From NCBI GenBank assembly GCA_031275395.1, contig JAISOU010000063.1, positions 1 to 45,510 on the forward strand: a stretch of DNA of 45,510 nucleotides, written 5' to 3'. The stretch is from Helicobacteraceae bacterium. GTDB lineage: Bacteria > Campylobacterota > Campylobacteria > Campylobacterales > SZUA-545. The notes beneath the pieces were generated by a model. That model worked only from the letters and a program-made list of their open reading frames with translations, made no database searches and was not told the DNA's origin. This document shows positions 33,439 through 39,886 of this stretch, piece after piece (positions within the stretch are counted from its first letter, which is position 1; each line of letters begins with the position of its first letter). Both the position numbers and the translations under genes were made by a program.

Positions 33439-34560
33439 TTAATCCAGCTCCAGCGTATTTAACGGAGTTATGTGATACGTTTTCATAACGTTTTTTATCT
33501 CTTGCGTTAAAGAGGAGAGTATCGCGAGCGCTTGCGGTTTTGAATCTTTAATGTCTTGAACGTTTAATACGGGTTGAGTGATGTTTGGCAAATATAGCCC
33601 TTTTCTGCTTATATCGCTATCTAGCGGATATATGACGGTATCGCGCAAATCTTCGCTAGAAAGCTCGCTTAGTAAGATTACCGAAAAAGCGCCGGTACCC
33701 CAACAATAAACCGTATCGTATTTTCTTAAAAACTCTTTTAGCTTTTTAACGTTTTTATCCAATCGATCTCTTTTAAACCGCGCCGTTTGCGCTAATTGCG
33801 CCGTTGTTCCGCCCGTATTTTTTATCGACGTTCCGCAGTTTGAAAATACTACAATAATAGCGTCGTTATACGTTTCGTAATCTATAATCTTCAAGTCGTA
33901 AGCCTTAGCGAGATTGATATAGAAAAATAGAGAGTAGAAAAACAAATGTTGATGATAAAATCCGTCAAAATTGGGGGTTTCGACGATAATCTTGCCTTTA
34001 GGCTTAAGTTGCGAGATCATATTCTTAAAGATTTCAAACGGATTGGCGAAATGTTCAAAAACGTGTCTTAAAACAAACAGATCGATCTCTTTTCCAAAAT
34101 CGTCCGCGCCATAATAGCTCTTGCGAACGTTTAACCCTTTTGATACGGCTACGTCGGCTTGAGGAGAGGGATCGATCCCTAACAGATCGCGATAGCCGCA
34201 ATCTTTTAGCCGCCGTAATAAAAATCCTACGGAGCTTCCTATTTCGACAATTTTATCATTTTTGTTTGAGTGTTTTTTAATTATATTTACAATGTAATCA
34301 AAAGGCGAGTTTCCTATATTCTTAAATGGATCTATATAGACATAATTATCGTATATCTCTTTTAGCTTCTCTTGGGGCGCGGGAGAACCGTTAAATCCCA
34401 ATCCGCAATAACGGCAAAGATAGACGCTAAAAGGGTATGTTTTGTTAAGATTCGCCTTCTCTTTTCGCAGGGCGCTTAAATATAAAGGCGATTCTTGGTA
34501 AAAAACCATTTCGCTTTCATTCCTGCCGCAAAAAGGACATAACATAGGTCTAGTTTCCAA
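33439..34560 (-). CDS. SAM-dependent sugar C-methyltransferase-like protein
   Basis: A 373-residue protein built like NDP-hexose C-methyltransferases: a zinc-binding N-terminus (C8, C11, C49, C52), a Rossmann methyltransferase domain (VEIGSSVGFLLRRLKD, then LRHVFEHFANPFEIF and GKIIVETPNF) and a C-terminal domain with YCWGTGAFS. The last gene of the glycan operon; its start overlaps the acyltransferase fusion by 11 bases. In C. jejuni a methyltransferase gene (Cj1300) lies in the comparable region where a di-O-methylglycerate is made, so an O-methyl role on the acyl group is also possible. C- versus O-methylation cannot be decided by eye. Confidence 0.75.
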   Translation of the reverse strand: METRPMLCPFCGRNESEMVFYQESPLYLSALRKEKANLNKTYPFSVYLCRYCGLGFNGSPAPQEKLKEIYDNYVYIDPFKNIGNSPFDYIVNIIKKHSNKNDKIVEIGSSVGFLLRRLKDCGYRDLLGIDPSPQADVAVSKGLNVRKSYYGADDFGKEIDLFVLRHVFEHFANPFEIFKNMISQLKPKGKIIVETPNFDGFYHQHLFFYSLFFYINLAKAYDLKIIDYETYNDAIIVVFSNCGTSIKNTGGTTAQLAQTARFKRDRLDKNVKKLKEFLRKYDTVYCWGTGAFSVILLSELSSEDLRDTVIYPLDSDISRKGLYLPNITQPVLNVQDIKDSKPQALAILSSLTQEIKNVMKTYHITPLNTLELD

Positions 34561-35734
34561 TCTTTATAAAAGAGCGTATATCCTCTTTTAACATCGAGAT
34601 TCCTATATCGTATAGCTCTCTAGCCTTAACGCCTTTTATATATCCGTCGCCTAACTTTGAAACGCGCAAAACTCCCTCTTGAAGCAACCTTTTTTCTAAT
34701 TTTTGAGTATCTAGCAAAGGATTCTTGTTTAAATCTCTAACATAGTAATCCGCGTAGGAATCGTATTGCGCGCCCAGATTGATTATCGAGCCTTCAAATC
34801 TTTTCATATAACGATACGGCACGGTATAGCTTTGCTCTATATGGTGAATAAAAGTTAGCGAGTTTAAACCCGTTCCAAAAAGGAGAATCCACGCGTCGTT
34901 TTTGACCAAATTCGCAAATACGGAAGCCTCGCCAAAGCTATCGTTATTTGCCGTAAGAAAATCCTCGATCAAAGCGCCGCGCCCCGCTACCGAAAATATA
35001 GGATGTAAATTGCGAACGACCCCCTTTTGTTTTCTAAACGCTTCGGTAAGAACGCCGACGCAAGAAGGGGTATTTTGAACGTCAAACGGTTCGTTTTTGC
35101 AAAAGCTATAGGTAAATACCGGAAATAAGAGGTTTCCCGACAGCCCGACAACCTTAATAAACGAGGCGATAAGCGCGTCGAAAAACCAAGCGCGATCCGT
35201 CGTTCCCAAAGCTCCAAAAGACGAAATATCGGAATGGGTAAAAACTGCGTCGCCCTCTTTAATAAAATCTAGCGCGGCGACTAAATCCGACGATCGGATT
35301 TTACGAGCGCCGCTTTTATAAAGACATGGAAGCTCGTCTTCGTCAATTTCGATCTTTACTAACCCTTCTCCCTCCATAATTAAGAGGTCGCCTTTTAGTA
35401 TAGTCGTCTTAATTAGCGCCGTTTGCGTCGCCTCCCATACGGCGATCGCCTCCGCGCGCGCGACAAGCGTATCGCCAATATAATATGGCGCTTTATAAAC
35501 CGCGCTTTGCTTCATACATATCGATTTCCCCCCCGGTAGGTATTCGCCGTATAATCTCGATAAAAGCGAATGCAAAAGAGCGGTGTAACCTAACCGTTTT
35601 TTGAAACGAGACGATTCGGCAAATTGCGAAGAGGTATGAAGAGCGCTTACGTCGCCGCAGATAAAGGCAAACTCTCTGTGAAGCTCTTCCGATATATAGG
35701 TTTCAAAACTAGCTTTTTGACCCGCTTTTAACAC
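34550..35734 (-). CDS. Fusion of MaoC-like hot-dog domain and AAC(3)-family N-acyltransferase
   Basis: A 394-residue two-domain protein. Residues 1-130 resemble MaoC-like dehydratases/thioesterases, with D28 and H33 in CGDVSALH at the expected catalytic spacing and LPGG following. Residues 145-390 follow the aminoglycoside N3-acetyltransferase family: FTHSDISSFGAL, then TPSCVGVLTEAFR, RNLHPIFSVAGRGALIEDF and LLFGTGLNSLTFIHHIEQ. In surface-glycan clusters such proteins acylate an amino sugar. With the ACP gene directly upstream (adjacent, no gap) I infer that the acyl donor is an acyl-ACP and not acetyl-CoA. It is not expected to be an antibiotic-resistance gene. C. jejuni has AAC(3)-like genes (Cj1296/Cj1297) in the matching place. 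Confidence 0.8.
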   Translation of the reverse strand: MLKAGQKASFETYISEELHREFAFICGDVSALHTSSQFAESSRFKKRLGYTALLHSLLSRLYGEYLPGGKSICMKQSAVYKAPYYIGDTLVARAEAIAVWEATQTALIKTTILKGDLLIMEGEGLVKIEIDEDELPCLYKSGARKIRSSDLVAALDFIKEGDAVFTHSDISSFGALGTTDRAWFFDALIASFIKVVGLSGNLLFPVFTYSFCKNEPFDVQNTPSCVGVLTEAFRKQKGVVRNLHPIFSVAGRGALIEDFLTANNDSFGEASVFANLVKNDAWILLFGTGLNSLTFIHHIEQSYTVPYRYMKRFEGSIINLGAQYDSYADYYVRDLNKNPLLDTQKLEKRLLQEGVLRVSKLGDGYIKGVKARELYDIGISMLKEDIRSFIKIGN

Positions 35735-35956
35735 CTATCGGCCCCCAAAAATCTTTAGAAGATCGCCGTAGTTTTCTATCTCGGAGCTTTGCTTTGAGGT
35801 AATAGCGATTCCGGTAGCGTTGGAAAGCTCCATAATCAAAATAAGATGATTGAAAGAATCCCAACCTTCTACGACGTTTCGTTGAAGACCTTCGTCGATC
35901 GTATCTTCCGATACGCCCGTAACTTTTATAAATATCTCTTTAACTTTACTGGTCAA
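35735..35956 (-). CDS. Acyl carrier protein, specialised
   Basis: A 73-residue acyl carrier protein. S34 in GWDSFNHL is the phosphopantetheine attachment site; helices before and after fit the ACP four-helix fold. It differs from fatty-acid AcpP (no acidic DSLD motif), as do the dedicated ACPs of glycan and polyketide loci. Its start overlaps the FkbH-like gene by 4 bases and its stop abuts the MaoC-AAC(3) gene, so it is probably loaded with a glyceryl group by the FkbH-like protein and unloaded by the acyltransferase. A phosphopantetheinyl transferase is not in the window. Confidence 0.88.
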   Translation of the reverse strand: MTSKVKEIFIKVTGVSEDTIDEGLQRNVVEGWDSFNHLILIMELSNATGIAITSKQSSEIENYGDLLKIFGGR

Positions 35957-37686
35957 AATCGCTCCTCTACGTTTATATAATCTGGAAACTCTATATCAAA
36001 AATATCCGTCGAATACTCTTCGGCGCTATCGTTAAAACTTTCCAGCTTAAAGCCCATTCTTTTATAAAAATCTCTGGACGGAACGTTTTTTTGCGTAAAT
36101 ATAACTTTTGCTTTCGCTAAAATTCCGCCTTTTTCTTTAATACGTTTAAGTAGCGATTGCAAGAGCGCCTCTTCCGTCTTTTTTCCTATTACGCGGCAAG
36201 AAAGAAGAAAGGAGTCGATCTCCCAATATCCCTCGTAAGGAAGGGCTATTGCCGCGCCCGTAAGACCGCTTTCGCCAAAACGATCGGAAACGTAAGCGAC
36301 CAAAGCGATCGCGCCGTTTTTGATCATCTTTTCAATATCTCCCGTCGCGTAGCGTTTCGTCGTCATATTAAACTGGTTGGTCTTCTGCGTAAGCTGGGCT
36401 ACTCTTTGGATATTTTCGTCGCTGATCCCCGTTATTTTTATCGATATTTTAAGAGAGCTAAGAAACTCTTCGTAACTAAGATTCTCCGCAAACTCTCGTC
36501 TATTCTTTTCAGCTTGATACATAGCGCTTCGCATAGCGTCTTCAGCGGTATAATCTAAAGTCCCAAAAGGCGGAAGATCCCCCGCTAAAGAGGGATAATA
36601 AAGCGCGTCGTTAGGAAGCTCCGGTACAAATAGTTGAGGTAATTCTTTTCGCGCGCGATCTCTATTTATAGGATCGTCGTCTATAAAAACCATACTATCC
36701 AACCCTAAAGATAGTTCTTGCGCCAACTCTTTTATCGATTGCGCTTTGTCGTTCCAATTGATTCTATAAGCGGCAAAATCCGATTTTTTCAAGACCATAT
36801 ACGGGTGTTTTTCAAACATTTCCCATACGTCCGCTTCGTTATTGCGGCTTGATATGGCAAGGACGACGCCGCTTAAGCGAAACGCCGCCAACTGCCTTTG
36901 AAAATCGTAAAACGCTTTTCCCGCGCCGTTAGGGGAAAGCTCTACGCCGTTTATTCCGTCTTCGCCTATCACGCCGCCCCAAATAGTGTTGTCTAAGTCG
37001 ATAACGATCGCTTTTTTTCCTTTTCCCAATTTTAAAATAATATATTTAGCGTATTCGCGGGCAAGCGCCGGAAAAAGATCGGGGCGAACGCGAAAATCGC
37101 CTTCGTAATACAGCTTATAATCCAAGATATTATTTTTTCCTATCGAAGAGGCAAATCCGTCAAAATCAAAGATTTTAAGACGAGGGCGAGTTTCCGATAG
37201 AGATATAAGCTCTTCGTTTATATTGCGAAGCGTTCTAAAATACTCTATTTCGCGGACTCCCAACGGAGAATAGACGGGAATAGAGTAGTTTGAAAAAACG
37301 ATTAGCGAGCTTGCGTTCGACAATAATAAAAACAGAAGAGTTTTTATCTTATCAAAACCTTCGTTCAGAGCGGCTCTAATATCTCCGTCGTATGGATTTA
37401 GCGCTCGATCGCCTATTAAATCGTTAATATCTGAATGCAAAAAAATGATTTCTGGATTAAACTGATAAAGCGCTCCAGAGCTATCGGCAATATCGGATAG
37501 ATGCATAGAGTAAGGCGATAGATAAACCTCCGCGTTTATTCTATTTTTCCATAACGTTACCTTTAATATCTGATCAAACTTGGCGTTCGTGCCGCAACTA
37601 AGAATCGCTATCTTACAAGCGGCGTAGTCGCTTGGCGGTTTTGGCGCGTTTCTAAAAGCGGCGATATAATCGCTAAAGGTCGTCAT
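35953..37686 (-). CDS. FkbH-like HAD-IIIC protein with N-terminal extension and C-terminal GNAT domain
   Basis: A 577-residue protein. Residues 1-220 form an SGNH-like extension seen in long FkbH proteins. The HAD core begins at 226 with AIVIDLDNTIWGGVIG (D230, D232); VFIDDDPINRDRARKELP is the motif IV region. Residues 430-570 look like a GNAT acetyltransferase fold (FGESGLTGAAIAL, VIGKKTEEALLQSLL, KNVPSRDFYKRMGF). FkbH proteins dephosphorylate 1,3-bisphosphoglycerate and load the glyceryl unit on an ACP; the ACP gene overlaps its stop by 4 bases. C. jejuni Cj1302 is a comparable protein. The start overlaps the DUF4910 gene by 14 bases. Confidence 0.88.
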   Translation of the reverse strand: MTTFSDYIAAFRNAPKPPSDYAACKIAILSCGTNAKFDQILKVTLWKNRINAEVYLSPYSMHLSDIADSSGALYQFNPEIIFLHSDINDLIGDRALNPYDGDIRAALNEGFDKIKTLLFLLLSNASSLIVFSNYSIPVYSPLGVREIEYFRTLRNINEELISLSETRPRLKIFDFDGFASSIGKNNILDYKLYYEGDFRVRPDLFPALAREYAKYIILKLGKGKKAIVIDLDNTIWGGVIGEDGINGVELSPNGAGKAFYDFQRQLAAFRLSGVVLAISSRNNEADVWEMFEKHPYMVLKKSDFAAYRINWNDKAQSIKELAQELSLGLDSMVFIDDDPINRDRARKELPQLFVPELPNDALYYPSLAGDLPPFGTLDYTAEDAMRSAMYQAEKNRREFAENLSYEEFLSSLKISIKITGISDENIQRVAQLTQKTNQFNMTTKRYATGDIEKMIKNGAIALVAYVSDRFGESGLTGAAIALPYEGYWEIDSFLLSCRVIGKKTEEALLQSLLKRIKEKGGILAKAKVIFTQKNVPSRDFYKRMGFKLESFNDSAEEYSTDIFDIEFPDYINVEERF

Positions 37687-38965
37687 TTTTTTCTATAAGC
37701 CCCGCTTTTTCAAGCGCGTTGGCGGTTTCTATCAGATCGATCGCGCAAACTCCGAGTATTTCCGCGATACCGATCAGATCGTTTGTTCCGTCCGCGTACG
37801 CTAAAAAATCCATCAAGATTTTCGCTCCATTGGCGCTTCCTTTCATACTTATCGTAGGATAAAGGTTGCGCTTGCTCATCTGAGGTTCGCATAAAACCGT
37901 ATTTTTATAAACGTAGTTAGCCTCCGCTATCTCTATGCAACTTTTGACGGCGTTAAATCCTCCTTCAAGTCCCGACGGAGAGATAAACGCCATATCGTCT
38001 AACGAAGTGTGATATTCGGGATATTCGCCAAACTTGGAGCGCATAATAGAACAAACGGGCAAATCGACGCCCGGAGCGCAGTATTGTCTCTCGTCGCTAC
38101 CTCTATTCAAAAACGAATATTGTTTGAAATCTGGAGCGATTTGTTTAAGCGTATGAACGGCAATTCTATCGGCTAAAGTATTTGCGTATCTGGAAGAGAG
38201 ATAGGAGTAACATCGATCGTCGCCAACGCAACTAAGCGCGAATCCAGCCGCCATTTTTTCTTTTAGCGTTTTTAGATTCTTGCTTAAATATACGATCGAG
38301 CCTATAGTTTCGGGTATAAAAACTATGCGATAGGTATAGCGGCGAGGCGCTTCTTGCAAATAGCGAGCGAGCGCGGTCGCTACTACGGGGCTAGAAAGTT
38401 CGTTGTTCGCCATAGACGGGTGGCAGATATAAGCCGAGAGAAAAATCTCTTTTTCGCTTTTGCCTTTAATAAGAAGCTCGCCGTACGTCAAATGTCCGGC
38501 GAAATGGCGAGCGTCTATATAGACGCGATATTTTTTATCGGGTTCTTTTCTAAGCTCCAGTCTTTGATTATGCGTAAGGCAAAATCCCCAATCTTTTTGA
38601 TAGTAAGAGGTAACGTAAGGAATGGCGTCGGGAAGCTCGGGCAGAGAATACAGACGAGAATCTAACTTTGCAAAGTCGAGCGTTTCGTCTATCGCCGTCG
38701 AATAGCCTACGATATGCAAATTGTGCTTTTTAAAATCGACGATTCGATCGCCCTTGTCGTTTGCGATAAAGGCGTCGTTTATCTCCCACTCTTCGGGAAT
38801 TGTCCAATCGAACGCTTTCGCGCCCGTCGGTTCTTTATGAATTTGCAATTCCGGAAGGATCGCCTTAATATACCGCAAGGTTTCGTTTATCCCTTTGCCC
38901 GTTATACTGCGGCAGATTGGATAGAGATCGCTTGCCCATCGGTACATTTGGTCGCCTACGCTCAT
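37673..38965 (-). CDS. DUF4910/DUF2172 aminopeptidase-like protein (Cj1295-like)
   Basis: A 430-residue protein of the DUF4910/DUF2172 type with an M28-like metallopeptidase fold: SAYICHPSMANNELSS, IPETIGS, RGSDERQYC and EYHTSLDD carry the candidate zinc ligands. The last 80 residues form a winged-helix-like tail. C. jejuni Cj1295 belongs to this family and has been linked to adding 2,3-di-O-methylglycerate to the pseudaminic acid on flagellin. The neighbours here (FkbH-like, ACP, AAC(3)-like, methyltransferase) fit the same chemistry. Whether it hydrolyses or forms an amide is unknown. It starts 12 bases after ppk2. Confidence 0.85.
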   Translation of the reverse strand: MSVGDQMYRWASDLYPICRSITGKGINETLRYIKAILPELQIHKEPTGAKAFDWTIPEEWEINDAFIANDKGDRIVDFKKHNLHIVGYSTAIDETLDFAKLDSRLYSLPELPDAIPYVTSYYQKDWGFCLTHNQRLELRKEPDKKYRVYIDARHFAGHLTYGELLIKGKSEKEIFLSAYICHPSMANNELSSPVVATALARYLQEAPRRYTYRIVFIPETIGSIVYLSKNLKTLKEKMAAGFALSCVGDDRCYSYLSSRYANTLADRIAVHTLKQIAPDFKQYSFLNRGSDERQYCAPGVDLPVCSIMRSKFGEYPEYHTSLDDMAFISPSGLEGGFNAVKSCIEIAEANYVYKNTVLCEPQMSKRNLYPTISMKGSANGAKILMDFLAYADGTNDLIGIAEILGVCAIDLIETANALEKAGLIEKNDDL

Positions 38966-38977
38966 CGATCGTCTTTG

Positions 38978-39886
38978 TTAATCGTCGATCTTTTCAAAGC
39001 GGTGGTAACGACCGACGACGGCTGGATCTGGACTTAGGGATATTTTTGTTTTCGCTTTGGCGTCGTAATCGATAACCGATAAAACGTAACGGATCGACTC
39101 TAAACGCGCCACCGCCTTATCGTTGCTATTTACGATAATCCACGGACTAAAGCGCGTGTGCGTTCTGCTGAACATCTGTTCTTTATAGAAGGTAAATTCG
39201 TCCCATTTTTTCTGCGCCTGTTTATCTACGGGGCTAAGTTTCCACTGCTTTAGCGGATTATGTTCGCGCGAGGTGAATCTCTCTTGCTGCGTGTCTTTCG
39301 ATACGCTAAACCAAAACTTAATCAAAATAATCCCGTCGTTGATAAGCGACTGCTCGATCTCGGGCGCTTCGTGCATAAAGCGTTCGTATTGATCTTTTGT
39401 GCAAAAGCCAAACACCGGTTCGACGACGGCGCGATTATACCAACTGCGGTCGAAAAAGACGATCTCGCCCGGATTCGGCAGTTGCGCCATATAGCGCTGA
39501 AAGTAAAACTGTCCCGCTTCGACCTCCGTAGGTTTCGGTAGAGCCACGACGCGGTATTTGCGGGGATTGAGCGCTTCGGTAAAGCGTTTGATCGCGCCGC
39601 CCTTGCCCGCCGCGTCCCGTCCTTCAAATAAGATCGCCACGCGCTGTTTCGTTTCCGCGACCCAATTTTGCATCTTGATCAGCTCGCCTTGAAGTTTTTC
39701 AAGCTCTTTGTTGTATTCGACCATTCTGAGCGCTTTGTTTAGCCGCGCTTTGCCTACGATCTTCTTTAATCCCGCGTCGGATTTAAGCAATCCGAGTTTC
39801 GCTCTAAAATTGGCGGCTCTGGCTTTGCTTTCCGCGTCCGTTAATTTGGAGGCGATAAACTCAAAATCCGCGAATAGGCTTTCCAT
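38978..39886 (-). CDS. ppk2: Polyphosphate kinase 2 family protein
   Basis: A 302-residue PPK2 enzyme: Walker A FEGRDAAGKGGAIKRF, PTEVEAGQFYFQRY, the Walker B-like FFDRSWYNRAVVEP and the lid with TSREHNPLKQWKLSPVD. It transfers phosphate between polyphosphate and nucleoside di- or monophosphates; class I members mainly make ATP or GTP from ADP or GDP. AAAGGAG precedes the ATG. It is 12 bases upstream of the glycan operon on the same strand, so the two may be co-transcribed, but no functional link is obvious. Confidence 0.94.
   Translation of the reverse strand: MESLFADFEFIASKLTDAESKARAANFRAKLGLLKSDAGLKKIVGKARLNKALRMVEYNKELEKLQGELIKMQNWVAETKQRVAILFEGRDAAGKGGAIKRFTEALNPRKYRVVALPKPTEVEAGQFYFQRYMAQLPNPGEIVFFDRSWYNRAVVEPVFGFCTKDQYERFMHEAPEIEQSLINDGIILIKFWFSVSKDTQQERFTSREHNPLKQWKLSPVDKQAQKKWDEFTFYKEQMFSRTHTRFSPWIIVNSNDKAVARLESIRYVLSVIDYDAKAKTKISLSPDPAVVGRYHRFEKIDD

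Follow-up and report, generated by a model that had tools for sequence, protein, structure and literature searches.

The 45,510-nucleotide (nt) contig JAISOU010000063.1 of a Helicobacteraceae bacterium (assembly GCA_031275395.1), analysed at its full length and called the window here, carries on its minus strand an operon of five genes encoding a DUF4910 protein, an FkbH-type enzyme, an acyl carrier protein (ACP), a fusion of a MaoC domain with an AAC(3) domain, and a methyltransferase. A preliminary description of this DNA had recognised the tight, overlapping arrangement and likened it to the Campylobacter jejuni Cj1295-Cj1302 set; both points hold, the second through the gene order and sequence identities of a Campylobacterales relative considered below. 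The DUF4910 and FkbH genes overlap by 14 nt and the FkbH and ACP genes by 4 nt, and the GTG start of the fusion directly abuts the ACP stop (0 nt). The methyltransferase follows after a gap of ~4 nt if its start is the ATG at 34545, which comparison with sister species makes a more probable start than 34560. Gene identities are taken from Pfam and NCBIfam domain searches:

37673 to 38965, minus strand: DUF4910/DUF2172/HTH_47 protein of the Cj1295 and CA_C2195 family, a proposed sugar N-deacetylase (PF16254, 340 bits)

35953 to 37686, minus strand: FkbH-type glyceryl transferase/phosphatase (TIGR01686, 290 bits, cut-off 147), with the HAD motif DxDNT in the form IDLDNTIWGG

35735 to 35956, minus strand: stand-alone ACP with weak ACP matches and the attachment motif GWDSF

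35345 to 35734, minus strand: MaoC/hot-dog domain, residues 1-130 of the fusion (alignment to PhaJ 1iq6; Asp-x4-His dyad)

34550 to 35344, minus strand: AAC(3)/Antibiotic_NAT domain, residues 131-394 of the fusion, a proposed N-acyltransferase (PF02522, 134 bits; TxxHxxE present)

33439 to 34545, minus strand: zinc-ribbon class I methyltransferase, TylC3/TcaB9-like (PF13489, 56 bits; PF08484, 22 bits)

38978 to 39886, minus strand: PPK2 polyphosphate kinase (TIGR03707, 353 bits, cut-off 302), 12 nt from the DUF4910 gene

Enzymes of the FkbH family take D-glycerate from 1,3-bisphosphoglycerate and load it onto an ACP as a glyceryl unit, and the assignment of that step to this FkbH and ACP in the preliminary description agrees with what is known of the family. 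The ACP, 73 residues long, scores poorly against its family (21 bits) and is accepted because of its D-S-F attachment-site motif and its position; it is 57% identical to the ACP of a sister species and 39% identical to the Desulfosporosinus ACP of an FkbH-ACP-AAC3-DUF4910 set. A literature search on the functions of Cj1300 and Cj1302 and on FkbH in flagellin glycans turned up no direct study. The DUF4910 protein (DUF4910, 340 bits; DUF2172, 117; HTH_47, 74) matches the structure 3k9t with E=1e-94 and is 48% identical to the copy that adjoins pseB-pseC in the Campylobacterales locus L174. In C. jejuni, Cj1295 is required for formation of 5-(2,3-di-O-methylglyceroyl)amino-pseudaminic acid, and the proposal of the authors is that it removes the C5 acetyl group (PMC3068675). 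Work on the reaction of DUF4910 proteins consists of a crystal structure, one mutant phenotype and proposals; no assay was found.

For the AAC(3)-like domain, transfer of an N-acyl group is supported by its fold and context, as had been suggested. The notion that it is instead an aminoglycoside resistance gene acquired with unrelated neighbours, invited by the PF02522/AAC(3) family match, is scarcely credible: only the PF02522 superfamily model is satisfied, with 60 bits against the 270-bit cut-off of the NCBIfam AAC_3 equivalog, and on that score a resistance enzyme was rejected. Moreover, the domain sits in a conserved biosynthetic set and has MaoC as its fusion partner here and FkbH in other loci.

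The composition of the operon recurs across phyla. In L174 (genome G117), through which, together with the published papers, the comparison with C. jejuni was made, the order is pseB-pseC-DUF4910-AAC(3)-ACP-methyltransferase-FkbH. The wider comparison covers 95 DUF4910 loci. A genome scan with alignment A1 supplied 80 named loci, of which four were dropped because the open reading frame (ORF) caller missed the gene; the rest are the Campylobacterales stretches and the loci of the window genus. Within eight genes of DUF4910 lie an AAC3 gene in 54 loci, an ACP in 38, a NeuB-family synthase in 36, an AMP-ligase in 23 and FkbH in 16; AAC3 directly adjoins DUF4910 in 34 cases and is nearly absent beyond four genes. 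This adjacency bears on the idea that DUF4910 proteins are peptidases or regulators acting on proteins, with an unrelated acyl-modification unit for neighbours. The M28-like fold and C-terminal winged helix suggest such a role, which nevertheless seems very improbable, since DUF4910 lacks the M28 catalytic Asp and Glu, which are Ser and Pro in 3k9t (PMC4000134), and loss of the Cj1295 gene alters the glycan, not the polypeptide (PMC3068675). The window protein itself does not pass as an M28 peptidase, judged by the catalytic Asp and Glu and the two-zinc site.

Among the 54 loci with AAC3, FkbH is present in 11 and an AMP-ligase in 22, never both (P=0.001), and the two are likewise never found together over all 95 loci (P=0.007). 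A full-length methyltransferase of the window or Campylobacter type was seen in six of the FkbH loci and in none with an AMP-ligase (P=0.002); FkbM, a methyltransferase of another type, does occur with an AMP-ligase. The pattern supports, without proving, the view that FkbH and AMP-ligase are exchangeable acyl loaders; it is graded no higher because the statistics ignore phylogeny and the loci were chosen as the best matches to the window DUF4910.

FkbH, ACP, AAC(3) and DUF4910 genes also stand together within flagellar or Pse (pseudaminic acid) loci of firmicute and proteobacterial genomes, where further neighbours were assigned to the flagellum by eye from their sequences. In Aneurinibacillus terranovensis (L110) a flagellin gene (PF00669, PF00700) is followed by a window-type methyltransferase, AAC3, DUF4910, FkbH, a VOC protein and Maf, after which PseI/H/G/F/C/B lie on the opposite strand. 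FkbH, ACP, AAC3 and DUF4910 occur with Maf in Lysinibacillus antri (L158), Desulfosporosinus acididurans (L102) and Motilimonas pumila (L097); Pse genes are present in the L158 and L097 stretches and absent from the L102 stretch. VOC (glyoxalase-fold) proteins recur beside FkbH (L097 6776-7189, L110 13380-13772, L158 14110-14514), and none is encoded in the window operon.

The window itself holds no gene for nonulosonate synthesis and no Maf gene by phmmer with reference proteins, an absence already remarked for the nonulosonate and flagellin genes in the preliminary description, which left the acceptor as an amino sugar and pointed to the rest of the genome. The genome does hold such a pathway on other contigs, so the preliminary description survives the refutation it had itself proposed, absence of any nonulosonate or amino-sugar pathway: PseI on contig C55 (475 bits, cut-off 340), PseB on C26 (522, cut-off 408), PseC on C90 (457, cut-off 424), PseG on C69 (232, cut-off 154) with a PseF homologue (phmmer) on the same contig, and PseH on C4 (145, cut-off 93). 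The genome also encodes three full-length flagellins and has two further flagellin-domain matches, all on other contigs, and two MptE/Maf proteins, one of which directly adjoins a flagellin. A sialic-acid-synthase-family match on C22, considered as a second NeuB, was dismissed as a DAHP-synthase-like protein by inspection. The PseI-bearing contig also has a G14 tract that interrupts a YrbL-like ORF (L004 10759-10772).

The acetyl group on N5 of Pse is that of N-acetylglucosamine (GlcNAc). The published oxonium ions of 317.13 and 391.16 (PMC7099621) differ by 74.03, the value that fits dimethylglyceryl (116.05) in place of acetyl (42.01), while plain addition would give 116. Since N5 carries an acetyl group and the mass shift is that of an exchange, the acetyl must be removed, which provides a role for DUF4910. 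C. jejuni 12664, in which the fkbH gene cj1302 is a pseudogene, has no dimethylglyceric acid (PMC7099621).

Gene content, homology, the Pse pathway of the organism's own genome and the conserved proximity to Pse and flagellar genes seen in other phyla together make it probable that the operon is a cassette for N-acyl exchange on a nonulosonate, of which flagellin-linked pseudaminic acid is the likeliest. No later than the CMP-sugar stage, DUF4910 would strip the GlcNAc-derived N-acetyl group (N5 of Pse); FkbH, as its family suggests, would load D-glycerate from 1,3-bisphosphoglycerate onto the ACP; the methyltransferase would modify the glyceryl unit, with the MaoC domain binding or processing the acyl thioester; the AAC(3) domain would move the acyl group to the freed amine; and a Maf enzyme would attach the sugar to flagellin. 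Of the scheme first sketched for this DNA, loading, N-acyl transfer and the amino-sugar acceptor are kept; it had left out a role for DUF4910, the MaoC domain and PPK2.

The same chemistry could instead act on an amino sugar in lipopolysaccharide, in capsule or in some other glycan of the cell surface, and not on flagellin Pse. PseI of this genome lies among glycosyltransferase- and heptosyltransferase-like genes (L004; read by eye), several DUF4910 loci are devoid of Maf and flagellar genes, and a surface polysaccharide was the proposal of Das et al. (PMC4000134). We nevertheless hold this acceptor to be possible but doubtful, given that the genome encodes flagellins, one of them adjoining Maf, that the Aneurinibacillus set with the same type of methyltransferase comes directly after a flagellin gene, and that the one experiment done on the family dealt with flagellin (PMC3068675).

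Several observations weigh against an N-acyl exchange cassette acting on flagellin Pse, over and above the selection of loci and the neglect of phylogeny noted for the comparison. The operon is unlinked to the pse, maf and flagellin genes of its own genome, which are on other contigs, and no AAC3 gene was called within eight genes in 41 of the 95 DUF4910 loci. Window residues S184 and P218 align to Ser191 and Pro225 of 3k9t, the positions of the M28 catalytic Asp and Glu, and the Zn ligand Asp195 of 3k9t is Asn188 in the window and Asn in most of the compared subfamily. With the M28 pair lost and a Zn ligand changed, deacetylation would require unusual chemistry. Finally, the window methyltransferase and the Campylobacter enzyme are not orthologues; they share 28% identity over 124 residues confined to the S-adenosylmethionine-binding core.

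This last point leaves one part of the preliminary description less well supported, in which the methyltransferase was to methylate the glycerate, with the di-O-methylglycerate decoration of C. jejuni as its parallel. The window enzyme has an N-terminal CxxC zinc ribbon, and its best match is a sugar 3-C-methyltransferase (4rv9, E=7e-10, aligned from residue 7). The zinc ribbon, core and C-terminal domain of the TylC3/TcaB9 architecture are all recognisable, PF08484 scoring 22.4 bits, just below its cut-off of 23.5. The YHEH motif of the characterised TylC3/TcaB9 enzyme, which has a catalytic role, reads YHQH in the window and HHQH in three relatives. An enzyme that is TylC3/TcaB9-like and not of the Campylobacter type does not establish dimethylglycerate as the product; it could methylate oxygen or carbon.

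The MaoC domain is the second distinctive element. Its Pfam score (24.7 bits) is just below the cut-off of 27, and it is accepted because its alignment to PhaJ 1iq6 spans the whole domain (residues 6-133 of 134, E=7e-14), and because of its position and its Asp-x4-His motif (GDVSALH; EDFNPLH in 1iq6), a dyad whose two residues have assigned roles in PhaJ. The AAC(3) domain is 69-71% identical to the AAC(3) proteins of sister species, which have no MaoC domain; the MaoC domain was either gained in the window species or lost in the sister species. A search of 150 relatives, the named loci and 72,556 plasmids brought up no further MaoC+AAC(3) fusion; the plasmid matches included AAC3 regions within proteins annotated as HAD-IIIC phosphatase. 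The parts of the fusion are combined otherwise elsewhere: in six loci an AAC3-FkbH fusion lies beside DUF4910, and in five of these it also adjoins a protein of the MaoC-SDR-ACP type with C-terminal ACP, only the ACP being detected in the equivalent protein of the sixth, L104. On a Maritalea plasmid, pseB, DUF4910, a NeuB-family gene and a pair of the AAC3-FkbH and MaoC/ACP kind are near neighbours. The fusion in the window therefore joins parts that are combined in other ways in other loci. MaoC proteins also adjoin PglD-like hexapeptide acyltransferases in four other Campylobacterales loci (L235, L236, L237 and L238; three confirmed by Pfam), so MaoC is found more than once in company with a sugar acyltransferase. 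Two of these four loci are near NeuB-family synthases.

The MaoC domain of the fusion may dehydrate or otherwise remodel glyceryl-ACP before transfer by AAC(3), so that an undescribed N-acyl group, for example of the pyruvyl or lactyl type or a C-methylated glycerate, would replace dimethylglycerate on the nonulosonate; we regard this as speculative and rather unlikely. Another reading is a small-metabolite operon, in which the AAC(3)-FkbH pair would N-acylate a free amine with glycerate and no sugar polymer would be involved. On an Erwinia rhapontici plasmid an AAC3 region lies inside an FkbH-type HAD-IIIC phosphatase (L242 8890-11403) in a metabolite-like cluster devoid of DUF4910, with an aminotransferase, a CDP-alcohol phosphatidyltransferase, an ATP-grasp protein and an MFS transporter for neighbours. 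For the window such a role is improbable: its operon has no transporter or other biosynthetic gene, and DUF4910 links it to nonulosonate loci.

Six other genomes of the genus were compared. One (G002, L048) has PPK2-DUF4910-FkbH-ACP-AAC(3)-methyltransferase in line, without MaoC; its AAC(3) gene (L048 1851-2690) contains two in-frame TAA stops and is either a pseudogene or the product of a draft-assembly error. Another (G006, L047) has PPK2-DUF4910-AAC(3)-methyltransferase, with FkbH and ACP elsewhere (C16, L214), and the remaining four of the six gave no DUF4910 match. The cassette is accessory and rearranged within the genus. A second FkbH set in the genus (L214 7202-11437; L215; L216) consists of ACP, FkbH, a VOC protein, a KASIII-like protein, ACP and SDR; a search with FkbH did not turn it up in the window genome.

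In G006 a C13 tract (L047 3143-3155) breaks the DUF4910 frame, in a manner reminiscent of the phase-variable Cj1295; a C21 tract (L047 80-100) lies in a neighbouring ORF near the left end of that stretch. Tracts of at least eight G or C occur inside or within 60 nt of seven of the 23 Campylobacterales DUF4910 genes, eight tracts in all against 0.37 expected from flanking DNA (Poisson P=7e-9, with related genomes included in the count). The window copy of DUF4910 has no homopolymeric tract. A G7 tract lies in the MaoC region (35528-35534); it was discounted as a sign of phase variation, since runs of seven bases are what chance alone would give over the length of the window.

By sequence, the window operon reads as a rearranged relative of the C. 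jejuni set. In NCTC 11168, Cj1295-Cj1302 (dimethylglyceryl-pseudaminate) likewise unites DUF4910, an AAC(3)-like protein, ACP, methyltransferase and FkbH, in a family with phase-variable members, and the window keeps in one unit the DUF4910, AAC(3)-like, ACP and acyl-loader genes by which a Cj1295-type cassette is recognised. It differs in lying outside the pse/flagellin locus, in the family of its methyltransferase and in the fusion of MaoC to AAC(3). Clostridium acetobutylicum CA_C2195-CA_C2199 (3k9t) shares DUF4910, an N-acetyltransferase, ACP and an N-acetyltransferase+HAD phosphatase protein (PMC4000134), but is clustered with spsE/spsF and glycosyltransferases and has its methyltransferase in one protein with a glycosyltransferase. 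A. terranovensis DSM 18919 shares the methyltransferase type (37% identity over the full length, HHQH), AAC3, DUF4910 and FkbH; it differs in its flagellin, Maf, Pse and VOC neighbours and in that no MaoC and no ACP were found in the searched stretch. The methoxymalonyl-ACP route of FK520, bafilomycin and tetromadurin likewise uses FkbH and a stand-alone ACP to make glyceryl-ACP, and the unit is O-methylated while attached to the ACP; in contrast, the window operon has no dehydrogenases, its acyl group would go to an amine and not to a polyketide, and its methyltransferase is of another family.

The association of DUF4910 with an AAC(3)-like protein and either FkbH or an AMP-ligase as loader, in Pse and flagellar loci of several phyla and often phase-variable in Campylobacterales, supports a general and testable N-acyl exchange module that would set the acyl group on nonulosonates. 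Variation of surface nonulosonates bears on phage binding and immune recognition, and the Aneurinibacillus and Lysinibacillus loci offer test systems outside Campylobacter.

PPK2 also adjoins the operon in the two sister species with DUF4910 (L047, L048). The conserved neighbour and the 12-nt gap make it probable that PPK2 is the first gene of a transcription unit running from 39886 to 33439; it probably lies outside the pathway. The contig opens with 50 consecutive C residues (1-50), which share a frame with an ORF; the assembly may have broken there at a hypervariable tract.

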